Assembly (NCBI GenBank): GCA_030446805.1
Contig: JAUJMO010000001.1
Location: forward strand, 1,011,241-1,075,240
Length of the DNA stretch: 64,000 nucleotides
Source of the DNA: Caulobacteraceae bacterium
GTDB lineage: Bacteria > Pseudomonadota > Alphaproteobacteria > Caulobacterales > Caulobacteraceae
Direction: 5' to 3'
Positions within the stretch are counted from its first letter, which is position 1. Each line of letters begins with the position of its first letter. The translations under genes and the position numbers were made by a program. Positions 15,092 to 58,300 of the stretch are shown piece after piece. The notes beneath the pieces were generated by a model, which saw only the letters and a program-made list of their open reading frames with translations, was not told the DNA's origin and did no database searches.

Positions 15092-17772
15092 CAGCGGCCC
15101 TCGCGGGCGTCGGCGTTCAGCGCGGCTTGCGCCGCCGCCAGGCGCGCGATGGGCACGCGGTAGGGAGAGCAGCTGACGTAGTCCAGGCCCACCCGCTCGC
15201 AGAAGGCGATGGAGGCTGGGTCGCCGCCGTGCTCGCCGCAGATGCCGAGCTTGAGGTCGGGGCGGGTCGCGCGGCCGCGTTCGGTGGCGATGCGGATCAG
15301 GTCGCCCACGCCCTCCTGGTCCAGCGAGACGAACGGGTCGCGTTCGAAGATCCCTTTCTCGAGATAGTAGGGCAGGAAGGCGCCCGAGTCGTCCCGGCTG
15401 ATGCCGAAGGTGGTCTGGGTCAGGTCGTTGGTGCCGAAGGAGAAGAACTCGGCGGACTGGGCGAGCTCGTCCGCACGGAGCGCGGCGCGGGGGAGTTCGA
15501 TCATGGTGCCGACCAGGTAAGGCGCCTCGACGCCCTGTTCGTCGATGACGATTTTGGCTGTGCGGTCCGTGAGTTCGCGCAGGAAGGTCATCTCCTCCTT
15601 CTTGGCCACCAAGGGGTGCATGATCTCGACGATGGCGGGACGGCCGGCCTTGGCCAGCTCGCAAGCGGCTTCCATGATGGCGCGGACCTGCATCTCGTAG
15701 ATTTCGGGAAAGGCCACGCCCAGGCGGCAGCCGCGCCAGCCCAGCATGGGGTTGGTCTCGTGCAGCTCGCGCGCCCGGCGGGTCAGCTTGGCGGCGTCGA
15801 GCCCGGAGGCGTCGGCCACGGCCTGAAGCTCCGCCTCCGTGTGCGGCAGGAACTCGTGCAGCGGCGGGTCGAGCAGACGCACGGTGACCGGCAGGCCCTC
15901 CATGATGCGGAACAGCTCGAGGAAGTCGCCTTTCTGGAATGGCGCGATCTTGGCCAGGGCCGCACGCCGACCGGCTTCGTCGTCGGCCAGGATCATCTCG
16001 CGAACCGCGGCGATGCGAGCCTCGTCGAAGAACATATGCTCCGTGCGGCAGAGCCCGATACCCTCAGCCCCGAACCGCCGCGCGGTTGAGGCGTCCAGCG
16101 GCGTCTCGGCGTTGGCGCGCACCCGCAGGCGGCGCACCTTGTCCGCCCATTGCATCAGCTGGGCGAAGTCGCCGCCCAGTTCGGGTTCCAGCGTGGCCAC
16201 GGCGCCCAGCAGGACCTCGCCCCTGGAGCCGTCGATGGTGACCACCTCGCCGGCGTGGACGGTGCGGCCGCGGGCGGTGAAGGTCCGGCTCTTGCCGTCG
16301 ATGTTCAACTCGCCCGCGCCGCTCACGCAGGGACGTCCCATGCCCCGGGCGACCACGGCGGCGTGGCTGGTCATGCCGCCCCGGGCGGTGATGATGCCGC
16401 GCGCGGCATGCATGCCATGGATGTCCTCCGGGCTGGTCTCCTGACGCACCAGGATGACGGCCTCCCCCAGGCCGCCCAGGCGCTCGGCCTCGTCGGCGTC
16501 GAACACCACCTTGCCGCTGGCGGCGCCCGGCGAGGCGGGCAGGCCGGCCGCGATCACGATCCGCTCCGCGTCCGGGTCCAGGGTGGGGTGCAGCAGCTGG
16601 TCGAGCGAGGCGGGGTCGACGCGCCCCACCGCCTCCTGCTCGGTGATCAGGCCTTCCGAGGCCATCTCCACCGCGGTGCGGAGCGCGGCCTTGGCGGTGC
16701 GCTTGCCCGAGCGCGTCTGCAGCATGAAGAGCCGGCCGTTTTCCACCGTGAACTCAACGTCCTGCATGTCGCGATAGTGGCGCTCCAGCCGTTCCACCAC
16801 CGCCTTGAATTCGGCGAACACCTCCGGCAGCGCTTCCTCCATCGAGGGCGCGGTCTCGCCCATCTCCTCGCGGGTCTGGCGGGTGAGCGCCTGGGGCGTG
16901 CGGATGCCGGCCACGACGTCCTCGCCCTGAGCGTTGATCAGGAACTCGCCATACAGCCGCGCCTCGCCGGTGGAGGGATTGCGCGTAAAGGCGACGCCCG
17001 TGGCCGAGGTGGCGCCCATATTGCCGAACACCATCGACTGGACGTTCACCGCCGTGCCCCAGCTCTCGGGGATGTCGTGCATGCGGCGGTAGAACTTGGC
17101 CCGGTCGTTCATCCAGCTGGCGAAGACGGCGCCCACTGCGCCCCACAGTTGTTCCTGAGCGTCCTGGGGGAAGTCGCGGCCGAGCTCCCGACGGACCACG
17201 GCCTTGTAGTCGGCCACCACGCGCTCCCAGTCGGCGGCGGTCAGGTCCGTGTCGACCTGGGCGTCCAGTTCGGCCTTGGCCTCGTCCAGCACCTCCTCGA
17301 ACAAGTGGTGGTCGAGGTCGAGCACGACGTTCGAGTACATCTGGATGAAGCGGCGGTAACTGTCGAAAGCGAAACGACGATCGCCGGACAGCTCGGCCAG
17401 GCCCTCGACCGTCTCGTCGTTGAGACCGAGGTTCAGCACGGTGTCCATCATCCCGGGCATGGACGCGCGCGCGCCGGAGCGGACGGAGACCAGGAGCGGG
17501 TTGGCGGGGTCGCCGAAGCGCTTGCCGGTGGCCTGCTCCACGCGGGCCAGCCCTTCGCGGACCTGATCCTCCAGCCCGGCGGGCCAGCTGCGGCCGTTGG
17601 CGTAATAGTGCGTGCAGGCCTCGGTGCTGACGGTGAAGCCGGGGGGCACGGGCAGACCCAGCGAGGACATCTCCGCCAGATTGGCGCCCTTGCCGCCCAG
17701 GAGGTTCTTCATCGAAGCGTCGCCGTCGGCGCCGCCCCCGCCGAAGCCGTACACCCAGCGCGTTTCGGTCAT
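15091..17772 (-). CDS. ppdK: Pyruvate, phosphate dikinase
   Basis: PPDK interconverts pyruvate, ATP and phosphate with phosphoenolpyruvate, AMP and pyrophosphate through a swivelling phosphohistidine domain. Visible parts are the N-terminal ATP-grasp region (LLGGKGANLAEM), the phospho-acceptor His at about 470 in GGMTSHAAVVARGMGRPC, and the C-terminal PEP domain with FGTNDLTQTTFG and the catalytic Cys in GICGEHGGDP (about 845). At 893 residues it is full length. I chose the ATG at 17772 (MTETRWVYGFGGG); an in-frame start at 17787 would add five residues. Confidence 0.97.
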   Translation of the reverse strand: MTETRWVYGFGGGGADGDASMKNLLGGKGANLAEMSSLGLPVPPGFTVSTEACTHYYANGRSWPAGLEDQVREGLARVEQATGKRFGDPANPLLVSVRSGARASMPGMMDTVLNLGLNDETVEGLAELSGDRRFAFDSYRRFIQMYSNVVLDLDHHLFEEVLDEAKAELDAQVDTDLTAADWERVVADYKAVVRRELGRDFPQDAQEQLWGAVGAVFASWMNDRAKFYRRMHDIPESWGTAVNVQSMVFGNMGATSATGVAFTRNPSTGEARLYGEFLINAQGEDVVAGIRTPQALTRQTREEMGETAPSMEEALPEVFAEFKAVVERLERHYRDMQDVEFTVENGRLFMLQTRSGKRTAKAALRTAVEMASEGLITEQEAVGRVDPASLDQLLHPTLDPDAERIVIAAGLPASPGAASGKVVFDADEAERLGGLGEAVILVRQETSPEDIHGMHAARGIITARGGMTSHAAVVARGMGRPCVSGAGELNIDGKSRTFTARGRTVHAGEVVTIDGSRGEVLLGAVATLEPELGGDFAQLMQWADKVRRLRVRANAETPLDASTARRFGAEGIGLCRTEHMFFDEARIAAVREMILADDEAGRRAALAKIAPFQKGDFLELFRIMEGLPVTVRLLDPPLHEFLPHTEAELQAVADASGLDAAKLTRRARELHETNPMLGWRGCRLGVAFPEIYEMQVRAIMEAACELAKAGRPAIVEIMHPLVAKKEEMTFLRELTDRTAKIVIDEQGVEAPYLVGTMIELPRAALRADELAQSAEFFSFGTNDLTQTTFGISRDDSGAFLPYYLEKGIFERDPFVSLDQEGVGDLIRIATERGRATRPDLKLGICGEHGGDPASIAFCERVGLDYVSCSPYRVPIARLAAAQAALNADAREGR

Positions 17773-26944: not shown

Positions 26945-28540
26945 ATGCGGTTCCTCCGATCCCTGCTGCTGGCCGCCGGCGTGGCCGCCCTGGCCACGGG
27001 CGCCGAGGCCCAGACGGCGCCCAAGCCGCTGTCGCCTTGGGACGCGCAGATCTATGCGGCGGCGTTTGCCGCGGCCGAGCAGGGCGAGTTCGCTGCGGCG
27101 GAGACGCAGGCGGCGCAGGCCTCGGACCCGTCCCTGCGGGGCCACCTGCAGCTGCGGAAGCTGCTCAGCCCCGGTCACAAGGCGGCCTATTCCGAGCTTG
27201 CGGCCTGGCTGGAGAGCCACCGTGATCACCCGGAGGCGGCCCGGGTCCATGCCCTGGCGCTGCAGCGCAAACCGGCTGGGGCTCCGGAGCCCGCCCGGCC
27301 CGCCGCGGTAGGCGGCGCCCGACGCTGGGTCGATCTGGTGGGGCGACCCCGGCCTGTGGCCCAGGGCCCGAGCGCCGCGGGGCGGAGCGCGCGGGAACTG
27401 TTCTACTCGGGCGAGACCCAAGCGGCCTACCAGGCGGCGGCAGCCTCCGGGGAGACCTGGATCGCTGGGCTGGCCGCCTTTCGCATGGGGCGGTTCGAGG
27501 AGGCGCTGCGCCGCTTCGACGCCGTGGCGCGGGACGGGTCGGAGAGTCCCTGGCTGCGGGCTGCGGGCGGGTTCTGGGCGGCGCGGGCCGCCACGGCCGG
27601 AGGCTCGCCGGAGATGGCGCCGGAGTTCCTGCGACAGGCTGCAGCCTATCCGACCACCTTCTATGGTTTGATCGCAGAGCGCCAGCTGGGGTTGGAGCCG
27701 GAGATCGCGCCGCCCCCCGCCGAGCTGGTGGAGGCGGCCCAGTTCGCCGAGCTCGTCGACCTCTCCCCTCTGGTGGCCAAGGACGCCCGGGCGCGGCGAG
27801 CCGCCGCGTTGACCCAGGTGGGCGAGACGGAGGACGCCGCAGCGGAGCTGCGGCTGGGATTGGCTTCGGCCAGGGACGAAACAGGACGGCAGGCCTGGCT
27901 GGCGCTGGCTTCAAGTGCGGGCGTGTCGCTGGGCGAGGACGGCGGGCGGTTCCGGCCCACGGACTTCCCGACGCCGGACCTGCGGCCGCAGGGCGGGTTC
28001 ACCCTGGACCCGGCGCTGGTCTATGCGGTGGTGCGCCAGGAAAGCCGGTTCAACCCACGGGCGGGAAGCCGGGTGGGAGCGAGCGGGCTGATGCAGCTGA
28101 TGCCCGCCACGGCGGCGGAGGTGGCCGGGGATCCACGACTACGCAACGATCCGTCCCCGCTGCACGACCCCGCGTTCAACCTGCGCCTGGGGCAGACCTA
28201 TCTGGCGCAGCTGCTGCGCCAGGCCGGGGTGGAGGGCGATCTTCTTCGCGCGCTGGCCGCCTACAACGGGGGGCGGGGAGCGGTGCTCAGCACCCGGCGC
28301 AAGCTGGGCGCGGACGACGACGTACTCATGCACATCGAGAGCCTGCCCTACGCGGAGACGCGCAATTACGTCGAGCGGGTCATGGCCAACTACTGGATCT
28401 ATCGCCGGCTGTTCGGCCGCGACTCCGCTACGCTGGACGCGGTGGCTTCAGGCGCCGCCACGATCGATCCGCGGCTGGACGCGGCGCCAGCGGCGAAGCG
28501 CTTCGCCGTTGTCGACGTCCAGCAGGGTCTCCAGCAGTAG
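26945..28540 (+). CDS. Soluble lytic murein transglycosylase
   Basis: The 531-residue periplasmic enzyme has a signal peptide (MRFLRSLLLAAGVAALATGAEAQ), a long superhelical alpha domain and a C-terminal SLT catalytic domain. The SLT motifs are VRQESRFNP with the catalytic Glu, GASGLMQLMPATA and LAAYNGGRGAVLS. It cleaves peptidoglycan glycan strands with formation of 1,6-anhydro ends. Its last 93 bases overlap the converging TIGR04282 gene. The extended C-terminus after YRRLFGR is therefore coding on both strands. Confidence 0.92.
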   Translation: MRFLRSLLLAAGVAALATGAEAQTAPKPLSPWDAQIYAAAFAAAEQGEFAAAETQAAQASDPSLRGHLQLRKLLSPGHKAAYSELAAWLESHRDHPEAARVHALALQRKPAGAPEPARPAAVGGARRWVDLVGRPRPVAQGPSAAGRSARELFYSGETQAAYQAAAASGETWIAGLAAFRMGRFEEALRRFDAVARDGSESPWLRAAGGFWAARAATAGGSPEMAPEFLRQAAAYPTTFYGLIAERQLGLEPEIAPPPAELVEAAQFAELVDLSPLVAKDARARRAAALTQVGETEDAAAELRLGLASARDETGRQAWLALASSAGVSLGEDGGRFRPTDFPTPDLRPQGGFTLDPALVYAVVRQESRFNPRAGSRVGASGLMQLMPATAAEVAGDPRLRNDPSPLHDPAFNLRLGQTYLAQLLRQAGVEGDLLRALAAYNGGRGAVLSTRRKLGADDDVLMHIESLPYAETRNYVERVMANYWIYRRLFGRDSATLDAVASGAATIDPRLDAAPAAKRFAVVDVQQGLQQ

Positions 28541-29044
28541 GGCGTGACCGCCCAGGGCCGCGCGGGTGTCGGCCAGGGCGTGTGGGCTGGACCAGCGCAC
28601 GCCCTGGAAGCGGACGGTGCGGGCGCGGCGGGCGTCTAGGGCCAGGATCCAGAAGCCGCCGTCCTCCGCCGGGCCCAGGACGACGCCGGCGCCTTTGGTT
28701 TGCTGAAAGGCGCGCCAGACCCGTTCGGGGGTGACGTCCGGAGCATCGGCGCCGACCGCCGCGACCGGACCCCGCGCGTGCGCTCGAAAGGCGGCCTGAA
28801 GCCTTTCACCCAGGCCGCCCCCGCCCTGCCCTTCGCTCTCCACGCCCGGCCAAGCGGCGTGGTCCGGGGCCATCCGCACTACGGTGCGCCAGCGCGGATC
28901 GCGGGCGAGACTCCGGATCAACGGAAGGCTCATGGCGCGATAGGCCCGCCAGGCCTCGACCCGGCCCACGTCGCGCGCCAGGCGCGTCTTGCCGACGCCA
29001 ACCGCGGGTGCGCGCGCGAAAACGATCAGGGTCGGCCGGTTCAC
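28448..29044 (-). CDS. TIGR04282-type glycosyltransferase (DUF2064)
   Basis: The 198-residue protein starts NRPTLIVFARAPAVGVGKTRLA, the hallmark of the DUF2064/TIGR04282 family, which is linked to arsenosugar biosynthesis in many bacteria. GADAPDVTPERV and GPAEDGGFWIL are the nucleotide-sugar and metal-binding segments of this GT-A-like fold. The start is GTG at 29044 and overlaps the stop of the partner gene (GTGA). The 3' end overlaps the transglycosylase gene on the other strand by 93 bases. No arsenic methyltransferase is visible nearby. Confidence 0.85.
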   Translation of the reverse strand: MNRPTLIVFARAPAVGVGKTRLARDVGRVEAWRAYRAMSLPLIRSLARDPRWRTVVRMAPDHAAWPGVESEGQGGGGLGERLQAAFRAHARGPVAAVGADAPDVTPERVWRAFQQTKGAGVVLGPAEDGGFWILALDARRARTVRFQGVRWSSPHALADTRAALGGHALLLETLLDVDNGEALRRWRRVQPRIDRGGA

Positions 29045-29715
29045 CGCCGATAGCTCCGGGCGAGGTCCTTGGGGTCGGCGCCGGCCAGCCATCGGCTGAC
29101 CAGGGCCCAGTTGCGCAGGCCTCGCTTGAGGTAGCCGCCGCGCTGGTAGCGCGCCGCGCTGGTGAGCGCGCGAGCGCCGACGCCGCGCAACCTCTTGGCC
29201 CCGAGACGGCGGACGATATCCAGATCCTCCATGAGCGGCAGGTCGCGGTAGCCGCCAACCTCCTCGTAAAGCGGGCGGGAGATCAGCAGGCCCTGATCGC
29301 CGTAGGGCCAGCCCAGACAGCTGCGCAGCCCCACCCCGACCTCCCAGAGACGGGCCACCGGGCGAGGATCGTCGAGGGCGAAGGTGAACCAGCCCGCCCG
29401 GTCCGACCATTTCGCGAGATGGCGCCCGGCCGCCTCGGCCCAGTCCGGTCCCAGGCGGGTGTCGGCGTGCAACGCGAGCAGCCACTCGCCCCTCGCCACG
29501 GCGCAACCCGCGCGGAGCTGCCCGCCGCGCGAGGGCGGGAGGGGACCGAGAACGCGGACTCCGGCCTGCTCGGCGACCTTCCGGGTGTCGTCGGACGAGC
29601 CGGCGTCGGCGACGATCACCTCGTGCACGAGCGGCGCATCCAGCGCTCGCAGGCAGTCGGCCAGGCTGGCGGCGGCGTTCAGCGTTGGGATGATCACCGA
29701 AATCGGGCCCGTCAT
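29041..29715 (-). CDS. TIGR04283-type family 2 glycosyltransferase
   Basis: The 224-residue GT2 protein begins with ISVIIPTLNAAASLADCL, has the VIVADAGSSDDT nucleotide-binding motif and the LALHADTRLGPDWAE DxD-type segment, and GGYRDLPLMEDLDIVRRL for acceptor binding. This layout is that of TIGR04283, the usual partner of TIGR04282. The two genes overlap by four bases (GTGA), so they are a coupled pair. An arsenosugar-like glycolipid or a similar sugar conjugate is a possible product, by family knowledge only. Confidence 0.87.
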   Translation of the reverse strand: MTGPISVIIPTLNAAASLADCLRALDAPLVHEVIVADAGSSDDTRKVAEQAGVRVLGPLPPSRGGQLRAGCAVARGEWLLALHADTRLGPDWAEAAGRHLAKWSDRAGWFTFALDDPRPVARLWEVGVGLRSCLGWPYGDQGLLISRPLYEEVGGYRDLPLMEDLDIVRRLGAKRLRGVGARALTSAARYQRGGYLKRGLRNWALVSRWLAGADPKDLARSYRR

Positions 29716-29881: not shown

Positions 29882-29896
29882 GTTCTTGCTTTGTTC
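29882..29896 (+). promoter_or_regulatory. LexA (SOS) box upstream of the radical SAM gene
   Basis: GTTC (29882-29885), seven bases, then GTTC (29893-29896): an exact match to the alphaproteobacterial LexA consensus GTTC-N7-GTTC. It ends 23 bases before the ATG at 29920, a repressor-like position. Confidence 0.8.
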
Positions 29897-29919: not shown

Positions 29920-30999
29920 ATGCTCCCGCCCTCCCCTGCTCCGGCCCAGAAAGGACGCGGCGCCCGGTCCAACGCTTCCGGGCGCTACGAGAGTCTGGAG
30001 CGGGAGGCCTTTGACGACGGCTGGCGAGAGGGCGATCCAAGGCCCGTCACGCTCCGCACCACGGTTACGGCCGAGACGGCGCGGGTGATCCTGACCACCA
30101 ACGACAGCCCGGACATCAGCTTCAACCAGTCGATCAACCCCTACCGGGGGTGCGAGCACGGCTGCGTTTATTGCTACGCTCGTCCGGCGCACGCCTACAT
30201 GGGGTTGAGCCCCGGGCAGGACTTCGAGAGCAAGCTCTTCTTCAAGCCGGACGCAGGGCGCCTCCTGGCTGCAGAGCTGAGTCGGCCGCGATACCGAGTC
30301 CAGAACATTCAGATCGGCGGCAACACCGATCCGTATCAGCCGGCGGAGCGCGACCTGCGGGTCACGCGCGAGGTTCTGGAGACCCTGGAGCGGTTCAGGC
30401 ACCCCTTCTCCATCATCACCAAGTCGCAGGCGATCACGCGGGACCTGGACATACTGGGGCCCATGGGGCGGGCGAACCTGGCCCGAGCGGCGGTCAGCGT
30501 GACCACCTTGGATCGCAAGCTGGCGCGGGCGATGGAGCCGCGGGCGGCCACGCCCGAGCGGCGGCTCGAGGCGATCCGGCGGCTGGCGGCGGCGGGCTGT
30601 CCGGTGACGGTGATGTTCGCGCCCGTGATCCCGGGACTGAACGACCACGAACTGGAGGCGGTGCTGGAACGGGCGGCCGAGGCCGGGGCGGTGAACGCCG
30701 GCTATGTGGCCCTGCGGCTGCCGCTGGAGATCAAGGACCTGTTCCGGGAATGGCTGGAGCTGGAGCGGCCGGACCGGGCGCAACGGGTGATGTCGCTGGT
30801 GCGGCAGATGCGCGGTGGGCGGGACTACGACCCGCAATGGCGCAAGCGGCAGACGGGCGGAGGACCGATCGCGGAGCTGATCGCGCGACGCTTCCAGCTG
30901 GCGTGCACACGATTGGGGCTGAACCGGAACTGGGCGCCGCTGGACCTCACGCAGTTCCGCGTGCCCGAAAAGGCCGGCGACCAGCTGCCCCTGTTGTGA
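29920..30999 (+). CDS. PA0069-type radical SAM protein (SplB-like)
   Basis: The 359-residue protein has a 4Fe-4S radical SAM motif, CEHGCVYCYARP, plus the NPYRGCEHG lead-in and IGGNTDPYQPAE that mark the PA0069/COG1533 group related to spore photoproduct lyase. The chemistry of this subgroup is not established. A perfect LexA box lies just upstream, so the gene is expected to be DNA-damage-inducible. That makes a DNA-repair or damage-response role plausible. The gene is monocistronic and diverges from the TIGR04283 gene. Confidence 0.88.
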   Translation: MLPPSPAPAQKGRGARSNASGRYESLEREAFDDGWREGDPRPVTLRTTVTAETARVILTTNDSPDISFNQSINPYRGCEHGCVYCYARPAHAYMGLSPGQDFESKLFFKPDAGRLLAAELSRPRYRVQNIQIGGNTDPYQPAERDLRVTREVLETLERFRHPFSIITKSQAITRDLDILGPMGRANLARAAVSVTTLDRKLARAMEPRAATPERRLEAIRRLAAAGCPVTVMFAPVIPGLNDHELEAVLERAAEAGAVNAGYVALRLPLEIKDLFREWLELERPDRAQRVMSLVRQMRGGRDYDPQWRKRQTGGGPIAELIARRFQLACTRLGLNRNWAPLDLTQFRVPEKAGDQLPLL

Positions 31000-35812: not shown

Positions 35813-36487
35813 ATGGCCCGCCCCCGCCCGCCCCACTTCCTGCTCGAGCGCGAATGCGACGGCTTGGTCTGCGGCGTGGACGAGGCGGGGCGCGGCCCCT
35901 GGGCCGGGCCCGTGTACGCCGGGGCGGTGGTGCTCGATCCCAAGCGGGCCCCCAAGGGACTCAACGACTCCAAGAAGCTGAACGCGAAAACGCGCGAAGC
36001 GCTCGAACTGGAGATCAAGAAAAAGGCGGTGGCCTGGGGAGTGGGGTTCGCCACGGTCGAGGAGATCGCCTGCCTCAACATCCTGCATGCCACGGGGCTG
36101 GCCATGTGCCGCGCGGTCGAGGCCATGGCGGTGAAGCCGGCCTGCGCCCTGGTGGACGGAAACTATCCTTTCGCCCTGCCCTGCACGGTCAAGACGGTGG
36201 TGGGCGGCGACGGACTGTCGCGCTCCATCGCCGCCGCCTCGATCCTGGCCAAGGTGGAGCGGGACCGGGTCATGGCGGCCTACGACGTCGAATACCCGGG
36301 CTACGGCTTCGCCTCACACAAGGGCTACCGCGCGGCCGTCCATGCGCGCGCGCTGCTCGACCGGGGCGTGACGCCCATCCACCGGCATGCCTGGGGGCCG
36401 GTGAAGCTGGCCGTGCTCGGCCTGGACCCCATGGGCGTCTACGCCGCGCTGGTGCAGGAGGACCTGCCGCTCATGGCGGCCGAATAG
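35813..36487 (+). CDS. rnhB: Ribonuclease HII
   Basis: RNase HII removes ribonucleotides from DNA and RNA-DNA hybrids. The 224-residue protein has the active-site DE pair in [20 protein letters not shown], a further Asp in ALVDGNYPF, and the [12 protein letters not shown]-type [19 protein letters not shown] region. Length is normal. It converges with the DUF6491-type gene, with one base between the stops. Confidence 0.96.
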
Positions 36488-56172: not shown

Positions 56173-57186
56173 TCAACCTTCGAACAGGCCGGGCTGGCCG
56201 GGCGGAGTCGTGGGCGGGGAAAGGCCCAGGTGGCCGTAGGCCTTGGGGCATGCGGTCCGCCCGCGAGGCGTGCGCTGGATGAAGCCCTGCTGCAGCAGAT
56301 AGGGCTCGATCACATCCTCGACGGCGTCGCGCGCCTCCGCCAGGGCGGCGGCCAGGGTCTCCATTCCGGCCGGACCGCCCGAATAGTTCTCGATCAAAAC
56401 TCCGAGGTAGCGCCGATCCATGGCGTCCAGCCCCGCTTCATCCACCTCAAGCCTGGCCAGCGAAGCCGCCGCGAGCTTTCGATCGACCGGCTCCCCGCCC
56501 GCGAAATCACGCACCCGGCGCAGCAGCCGGCCGGCGACCCGCGGCGTGCCCCGCGCCCGGGCGGCGATCTCCGCCGCACCGTCCCCCGTCAGCTCGACCC
56601 CGAGCTTGCGGGCGGCCTGGAGCAGCACCTGTCTAAGTTCGGCCGGGGTGTAGAACTCGAGGCGAAGCGGAATGCCGAAGCGGTCGCGGAGCGGGGTTGC
56701 CAAGAGGCCGGCCCGTGTGGTGGCGGCCACCAGGGTGAAGGGCGACAGGTCAATGCGCACCGAACGCGCCGAAGGTCCCTCCCCGATCATCAGGTCCAGA
56801 ACCTGGTCCTCCATCGCGGGATAGAGGATCTCCTCCACGATCGGCGCCAGCCGGTGGATTTCGTCGATGAACAGCACGTCTCGGGGTTCGAGATTGGTCA
56901 GGATGGCGGCCAGGTCTCCGGCCTTGGCCAGCACGGGCCCGGAGGTGGCCCGAAAGTTCACGCCCAGTTCGCGGGCGACAATCTGCGCCAAGGTGGTCTT
57001 GCCCAAGCCCGGAGGACCGAACAGCAGCACATGGTCCAGCGCCTCGCCCCGTCCCCGTGCGGCGTCGATGAAGACCTTGAGGTTCCCCTTGGCCTGGGCC
57101 TGGCCCACGAACTCGGCCAGGGTTTGGGGGCGCAGCGCCTTGTCCGCCTCCTGGGCCTGAGGCTCGCCCGAGATCAACCGGCTCAA
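56173..57186 (-). CDS. ruvB: Holliday junction branch-migration helicase RuvB
   Basis: RuvB is the AAA+ motor of the RuvABC complex. The 337-residue protein has Walker [16 protein letters not shown], Walker [11 protein letters not shown], the sensor AATTRAGLL and the C-terminal winged helix ending [14 protein letters not shown]. The TTG at 57186 is chosen because it overlaps the ruvA stop (TTGA) and gives the standard MSRLIS start. Confidence 0.96.
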
Positions 57187-57803: not shown

Positions 57804-58294
57804 GCCGCCCGCCGGCTGGTGCGGCGGTGCGCGTGCGTGATGGCCACGGCCAGGGCGTCCGCCGCGTCGGCCGACACCTCGCCGCAGCCCGGCAGCAGCC
57901 GGCGCACCATGAAACCCACCTGCGCCTTCTCCGCGCGCCCGGTTCCGACCAGCGCCTTCTTGACCTCAGCGGGCGCGTATTCGGCAACGGGCAACCCGGC
58001 CTGCGCCGGAGCGATGAGGCTGGCCGCCCGCGCGTGCCCGAGTTTCAATGTAGAGGCGGCGTTGACGTTGACGAAGGTCTCCTCGACCGCGGCTTCGTGC
58101 GGCGCATGCGCGGCGATCACGGCCGCGACCCCCTCCAGCAAGGCGCAGAGCCGGTCGGCGAAGGCGGCCGCTTCAGGGGGCGCGATCACGCCGTGCGCGA
58201 TCCAGCTCAGGCGTGAGCCCTCCACGGCCACCACGCCCCAGCCCGTCCGGCGAAGACCGGGATCAAGCCCGATGATGCGAGTTGCGTTCGTCAT
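57800..58294 (-). CDS. ruvC: Crossover junction endodeoxyribonuclease RuvC
   Basis: RuvC resolves Holliday junctions. The 164-residue protein has the catalytic acidic residues in [15 protein letters not shown] (Asp11), [20 protein letters not shown] and [17 protein letters not shown] chose the ATG at 58294 because it begins [13 protein letters not shown]; upstream in-frame sequence to 58351 has no family signal. A LexA box encloses this start codon. It heads the ruvCAB-ybgC-tol run. Confidence 0.95.
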
Positions 58295-58300
58295 GTGTTC
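58286..58300 (-). promoter_or_regulatory. LexA (SOS) box overlapping the ruvC start codon
   Basis: On the coding strand it reads GAAC (58300-58297), seven bases that contain the ATG, then GAAC (58289-58286). This is an exact GTTC-N7-GTTC/GAAC-N7-GAAC alphaproteobacterial LexA site. Repressor bound here would cover the start codon. Confidence 0.75.

Follow-up and report, generated by a model that had tools for sequence, protein, structure and literature searches.

The window examined here, a stretch of 64,000 nucleotides of Caulobacteraceae DNA, carries an apparent SOS operator directly in front of a gene for a radical SAM protein. This arrangement raises two questions: whether LexA controls the gene, and what kind of enzyme would then be produced upon DNA damage. 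The sequence-only reading of the window had described an exact LexA box ending 23 bases before a radical SAM gene of the PA0069 group, and both the positions and the group assignment agree with the present analysis. On the + strand, GTTCTTGCTTTGTTC at 29882-29896 is an exact match to GTTC-N7-GTTC, and 23 bases separate it from the ATG at 29920 that opens an ORF of 1,080 bases. The match of the encoded protein to the model NF033668 (rSAM_PA0069) spans model positions 1-348 of 348 and scores well above the cut-off.

29882..29896 (+): LexA box GTTCttgctttGTTC, putative alphaproteobacterial SOS operator, judged from its sequence, its conservation upstream of orthologues and the same motif at the genome's own lexA
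29920..30999 (+): PA0069-family radical SAM protein, 359 aa (NF033668, 508 bits, cut-off 360; PF04055, 84.6 bits)

A single GTTC-N7-GTTC site, taken alone, proves little. The window has three such sites where shuffled sequence would give 1.36, and three or more were seen in 12 of 100 shuffles; genome-wide there are 95 sites against 44 for a reversed control pattern. The fuller form GTTCTTGNNNTGTTC is much rarer, with three occurrences in the 3.04 Mb genome and none for its control, and the box at 29882 is one of the three. The genome also encodes a cognate LexA (G000:C1:533253-533945), and the same operator, as GTTCCCGCCTTGTTC, lies upstream of the lexA start with a second site beside it facing the other direction. 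In the alphaproteobacterial LexA regulon the operator is expected near the start of the gene, as is found for the box in the window. One of the two other sites in the window is itself suggestive.

58286..58300 (pattern reads +, ruvC on -): GTTC-N7-GTTC that overlaps the probable start codon of ruvC, separate from the PA0069 unit

This site fits LexA control of ruvCAB, for which putative LexA sites in alphaproteobacteria are given in the available part of an earlier study (PMC3323433). The third site, at 56956-56970, lies within an ORF read as ruvB and is probably a chance occurrence.

The box in front of the radical SAM gene stands beyond chance because it is conserved upstream of orthologues and is scarce in controls. 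Orthologues were found in 126 of 149 family genomes and 166 of 289 class genomes, the nearest named loci being those of Phenylobacterium, Brevundimonas and Caulobacter, which agrees with the Caulobacterales named in the sequence-only reading. Some copies are decayed: one genome carries extra damaged copies of the gene (G048:C8:973-2303 and 16262-17098), and another only a remnant with a stop (G067:C1:2692078-2692374). Conservation of the box upstream of Caulobacterales orthologues was the check proposed in the sequence-only reading, and within the 250 bases before the first matched codon an exact GTTC-N7-GTTC is present for 65 of 70 Caulobacteraceae orthologues (27/30 and 38/40); of the 126 family genomes that gave a match, these 30 and 40 loci represent 70. 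Class-wide the count is 92 of 108 (67/79, and 25/29 in further loci from the class search), drawn from a set of 109 places (29 loci, two of them from the family, and 80 more) among the 166 matching class genomes, with L061 left out because its upstream sequence was too short. Among the named loci, which partly overlap with the genomes of the G series (e.g. L011 and L183, apparently a single contig), 71 of 80 have the box. In other parts of the named loci it occurs in 9 of 3565 windows on the same strand, and among the promoters of neighbouring ORFs in 1 of 524 (mean GC 0.63 versus 0.60 in the test set).

Many of the apparent misses are near misses. The first set of counts left 26 loci with no exact box, of which 16 have a site matching 7 of 8 positions within 350 bp and one, L256, has an exact site further up, at -333; the remaining nine fall lower, eight at 6 of 8 and one at 5 of 8. 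The spacer of the box is conserved as well, with the consensus TTG(T/A)T(T/A)T, though the definition of the box leaves the spacer free.

Outside the alphaproteobacteria the operator is replaced by the LexA box typical of the group concerned. Among the matches listed, 37 same-phylum sequences make up the gamma/beta set, and 21 of these 37 have an exact CTGT-N8-ACAG upstream, which we take to be the gamma/beta LexA box, with one more at 7 of 8. Shuffles give an exact match in 0.3% of trials. The two motifs do not mix: the alpha box is found in none of these 37 upstream regions, and CTGT-N8-ACAG in none of 228 alpha upstream regions. Within the same listed matches the distribution follows anonymous families, the exact motif being present in 9/9 of f167, 4/4 of f187, 4/5 of f166, 2/2 of f190, 1/1 of f185 and 1/1 of f191, and being found in 0/7 of f169, 0/3 of f188 and 0/5 of five single genomes; 15 of the 37 upstream regions have no site at 7 or 8 of 8. 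Control of the gene thus appears to have survived, or to have been acquired anew, with two different LexA operators, and to be missing in some groups. The Pseudomonas aeruginosa SOS list drawn up by Cirz et al. in 2006 reportedly includes PA0069.

More distant or mobile relatives give a mixed picture. On an 880-kb Sphingomonas plasmid (L323), a PA0069 gene near moaB and dnaE is preceded by a pair of GTTC-N7-GTTC sites, which lie 95 and 28 bases before the match. Two plasmid-borne actinobacterial relatives were available: in Streptomyces (L321) GAACATGTGTTC lies 147 bases before the matched start, and in Arthrobacter (L322) no box was found. Upstream of the Legionella gene (L320) a scan for three kinds of box found none. 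A search for the gene in phages returned nine records, each with less than 80% of the query covered.

The genes around the box also need to be considered, since the intergenic region is shared with a divergent gene.

29041..29715 (-): divergent glycosyltransferase (TIGR04283, 197.4 bits versus 182), sharing the intergenic region with the box
35813..36487 (+): rnhB (RNase HII), 4.8 kb from the PA0069 gene; context only

A glycosyltransferase-like gene at 28451-29041 (-) adjoins the first of these (TIGR04282, 113.8 bits, below 134). A related divergent glycosyltransferase recurs in 31 of the 80 named loci, and in 42 of the 79 with enough sequence the PA0069 gene is followed on its own strand by rnhB, at 14 to 4276 bases by aligned start. 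In five named loci that distance is within 50 bases, and rnhB could there join the LexA-controlled unit. A CcrM-like methyltransferase also recurs near PA0069 orthologues. As a clue to function these neighbours were set aside, rnhB and the glycosyltransferase being read as general synteny, in the window as elsewhere, and no neighbouring gene in the loci examined names a substrate.

Two readings would deny the box its role at the radical SAM gene. It could serve the divergent glycosyltransferase instead, a possibility raised by the shared intergenic region and by the recurrence of that neighbour; given how many named loci have the box, though, at least 40 are boxed without that neighbour among the gene clusters compared, and the gamma/beta box likewise lies near the PA0069 gene among the matches listed, so that this reading is very improbable. 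The box could also have arisen by chance and play no part in regulation, as the frequency of the bare motif in the window might suggest, yet its retention in orthologues relative to both controls and its replacement by the gamma/beta motif leave this with next to no probability. SOS control of the radical SAM gene, as the sequence-only reading had put it, is by comparison strongly supported by conservation and by the way the motif follows the LexA operator that other classes use, and judged from these upstream regions the gene is very probably a member of the SOS regulon.

Such control is known in kind. It is not a new proposal, because a published prediction already placed 'splB' of both alpha- and betaproteobacteria under LexA (Sanchez-Alberola et al. 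2012; PMC3323433). In the available part of that paper, the occurrence of two divergent motifs was taken to make splB a real SOS member, and the gene was named photolyase and read as spore photoproduct lyase (SPL) (PMC3323433). As far as the accessible portions of later papers go, SplB-like radical SAM proteins were linked with other SOS genes in 2013 (PMC3765255), and in 2021 SplB/COG1533 was described as SOS regulated in several species, with an extension to Bacteroidetes (PMC8565304). A radical SAM gene of Streptomyces venezuelae, likened by its authors to enzymes that repair thymine cross-links, was identified by ChIP-seq as a target of LexA, and mitomycin C raises its expression about 20-fold (PMC9380542). 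As a possible relative of the present gene, it is counted in favour of a damage-induced reading.

The 'splB' of 2012 was probably itself of the PA0069 type, because a PA0069-type gene of S. meliloti is boxed and proteins matching the SPL model are rare in the class. On pSymB of S. meliloti, a species listed in the available part of the 2012 study (PMC3323433), GTTCTTGATTTGTTC lies 187 bases before the first matched codon of the PA0069-type gene. The SPL model PF20903 exceeds its cut-off in 7 of 289 class genomes, versus 166 of 289 with a matching PA0069 relative. In the text passages searched in Caulobacter SOS papers, no report of LexA binding or damage induction of a PA0069 orthologue was found, and no paper found in the search treats PA0069 together with radical SAM, or Rv2578c together with LexA.

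The second question concerns the enzyme. Three stretches of the protein bear on it.

29950..29991 (+): N-terminal tail, residues 11-24, GRGA..N..GR.E; conserved, predicted disordered
30151..30174 (+): CX3CX2C, C78/C82/C85, predicted ligands of the [4Fe-4S] cluster; invariant
30316..30342 (+): GGNTDPYQP, residues 133-141, aligned with the loop of the SPL hydrogen-donor cysteine, here Asn135

The sequence-only reading had related the protein to SPL and had taken this relation to suggest a repair chemistry. At the level of fold the relation stands, SPL being the closest solved fold. An AlphaFold2 model built from 42 sequences (pLDDT 83, and below 50 for residues 1-37) placed SPL structures at the top of a Foldseek search (E 4.6e-8), and structure comparison gave six SPL entries Z scores of 18.7-19.1 versus 15.4 for the next, non-SPL entry; the alignment to 4fhf reaches Z 19.1 over 267 residues at 3.9 A. 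In sequence searches of the PDB, the single protein found no match at E 0.1, and a profile found SkfB at 0.0023. Among Pfam models at E up to 0.001 the window protein matches only PF04055, with no match to PF20903, the Pfam model of SPL.

At the level of catalytic residues the relation fails. In SPL, C141 of B. subtilis (C140 in Geobacillus, Gt) donates a hydrogen atom to the allyl radical of thymine and is then restored by way of Y99, according to the available part of the source (PMC5368176). The column of this cysteine corresponds to position 135 of the window protein, where 80 PA0069-family sequences have N in 68, D in 7 and V in 5, and never Cys, in an alignment of low identity (14% in the structural alignment) that is anchored on the shared TD motif. 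That the 80 sequences have no conserved cysteine beyond the three of the cluster is independent of this low-identity alignment. The position of the relay tyrosine (Y99 in B. subtilis, Y98 in Gt) is F in 49 and Y in 31 of the 80, with Tyr in the window protein, and Tyr84, directly before the third cluster cysteine, is invariant. Because the hydrogen-donor cysteine and the tyrosine relay are not conserved and the SPL model in Pfam is unmatched, a repair chemistry of the SPL type is without support.

The same genome holds a protein that does answer to the description. At G000:C1:291936-292982 (-), outside the window (loci L002 and L261), lies a true SPL with 288.6 bits to PF20903 and E 6.4e-64 to the solved Geobacillus SPL, which keeps the hydrogen-donor cysteine in FEASCYTDPLGIEHLT. 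No GTTC-N7-GTTC occurs in 4 kb around it. Among 30 other family genomes searched, pieces of SPL were found only in the one of the same genus. A profile of the PA0069 family aligns to the genome's own SPL only over residues 188-258 by default; full-length alignments were obtained only by forcing and merit little confidence. In this organism SPL and the PA0069 protein appear to be maintained as two distinct tools, with the box only at the latter.

These observations bear on what an SOS-controlled PA0069 protein would do. The reading proposed in 2012, a functional SPL that reverses 5-thyminyl-5,6-dihydrothymine under SOS control in non-sporulating bacteria, draws on SPL as the closest solved fold, on the shared TD motif and cluster cysteines and invariant Tyr84, and on the authors of both the 2012 and the Streptomyces studies, who in the available parts read their genes in this way (PMC3323433; PMC9380542). 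It is nevertheless improbable, as the donor column is never Cys, the Tyr98 (Gt) position is mostly Phe, and PF20903 is absent from the Pfam matches of the protein and instead picks another gene in the genome, the true SPL with its cysteine and without the box. An enzyme that is damage-induced and modifies RNA or protein, for example by a mark on tRNA or the ribosome, with no part in DNA repair, is unlikely to a lesser degree. RNA is the target of many radical SAM enzymes, the same structural list includes RlmN and TYW1 below SPL, and the conserved GRG tail would be compatible with nucleic acid of any kind; SPL is clearly higher in Z, however (about 19 versus 13-14), and SOS control under two LexA motifs better fits DNA damage. 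SOS membership alone does not establish a DNA substrate, and SOS regulons include genes for other tasks.

The account towards which we lean, with modest confidence in its entirety, is that of a LexA-repressed, SOS-induced PA0069-family radical SAM enzyme that acts on nucleic acid without the cysteine cycle of SPL. The mechanism of the SOS response is established: RecA-driven self-cleavage of LexA lifts repression. In the undamaged cell, LexA bound to the box, 23 bases ahead of the ATG, would block transcription, and upon damage its RecA-driven self-cleavage would free the promoter and induce the gene. With its SPL-like radical SAM fold and three cluster cysteines, the enzyme would most likely make a 5'-deoxyadenosyl radical whose target would be nucleic acid, damaged or modified, that the conserved tail helps to hold. 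This tail is possibly nucleic-acid binding; among the matches listed, GRG near the N-terminus was seen by eye in 34 of 37 gamma/beta fragments, and a stricter pattern matched 20 of 37. The cysteine-return cycle by which SPL regenerates SAM is probably not run, because the hydrogen-donor cysteine and the relay tyrosine are not kept; hydrogen might be returned by another residue, or SAM might be consumed. Our best guess is that the enzyme would directly reverse or modify some lesion that is linked to damage but is not spore photoproduct.

A wider proposal is offered tentatively, as a possibility for which we would not claim the upper hand. In alpha- and betaproteobacteria and in some gammaproteobacteria, the PA0069 family may belong to the core of the SOS response and carry out a non-SPL radical reversal or remodelling of a nucleic-acid lesion, with another route of hydrogen return or with consumption of SAM; its control would have been kept as the LexA operator changed, and it would work beside, and not as, the true SPL. 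LexA control under two different motifs argues for a real damage function. The usual label of spore photoproduct lyase or 'photolyase' misfits the active site, which makes a widespread annotation doubtful and raises the question of how an SPL-like enzyme without the SPL cysteine acts on DNA or RNA after damage. SOS regulons still contain enzymes without a known substrate.

Set against known systems, the window protein is a full-length match to NF033668, a hypothetical equivalog in NCBIfam, and no feature was found that sets it apart from that family. The Rv2578c family (NF038135) is second best, with E 5.6e-65 over residues 59-295 of the window protein; membership was rejected at 219.5 bits versus a cut-off of 430. 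With SPL (PF20903; PDB 4fhc and others) the PA0069 protein shares the fold, the CX3CX2C motif, the TD motif and the tyrosine before the third cysteine. The PA0069 family differs in having no hydrogen-donor cysteine, mostly Phe at the relay position, no PF20903 match and an additional GRG tail, and SPL membership of the window protein is ruled out on PF20903, the donor cysteine and the relay tyrosine. The closest parallel is 'splB'/COG1533. In the available part of the 2012 paper it is read as SPL (PMC3323433), whereas the window protein is without the SPL residues; as far as the accessible portions of the two sources go, it resembles the window gene in that it encodes an SplB-like radical SAM protein and is preceded by the LexA motif of its class (PMC3323433; PMC8565304).
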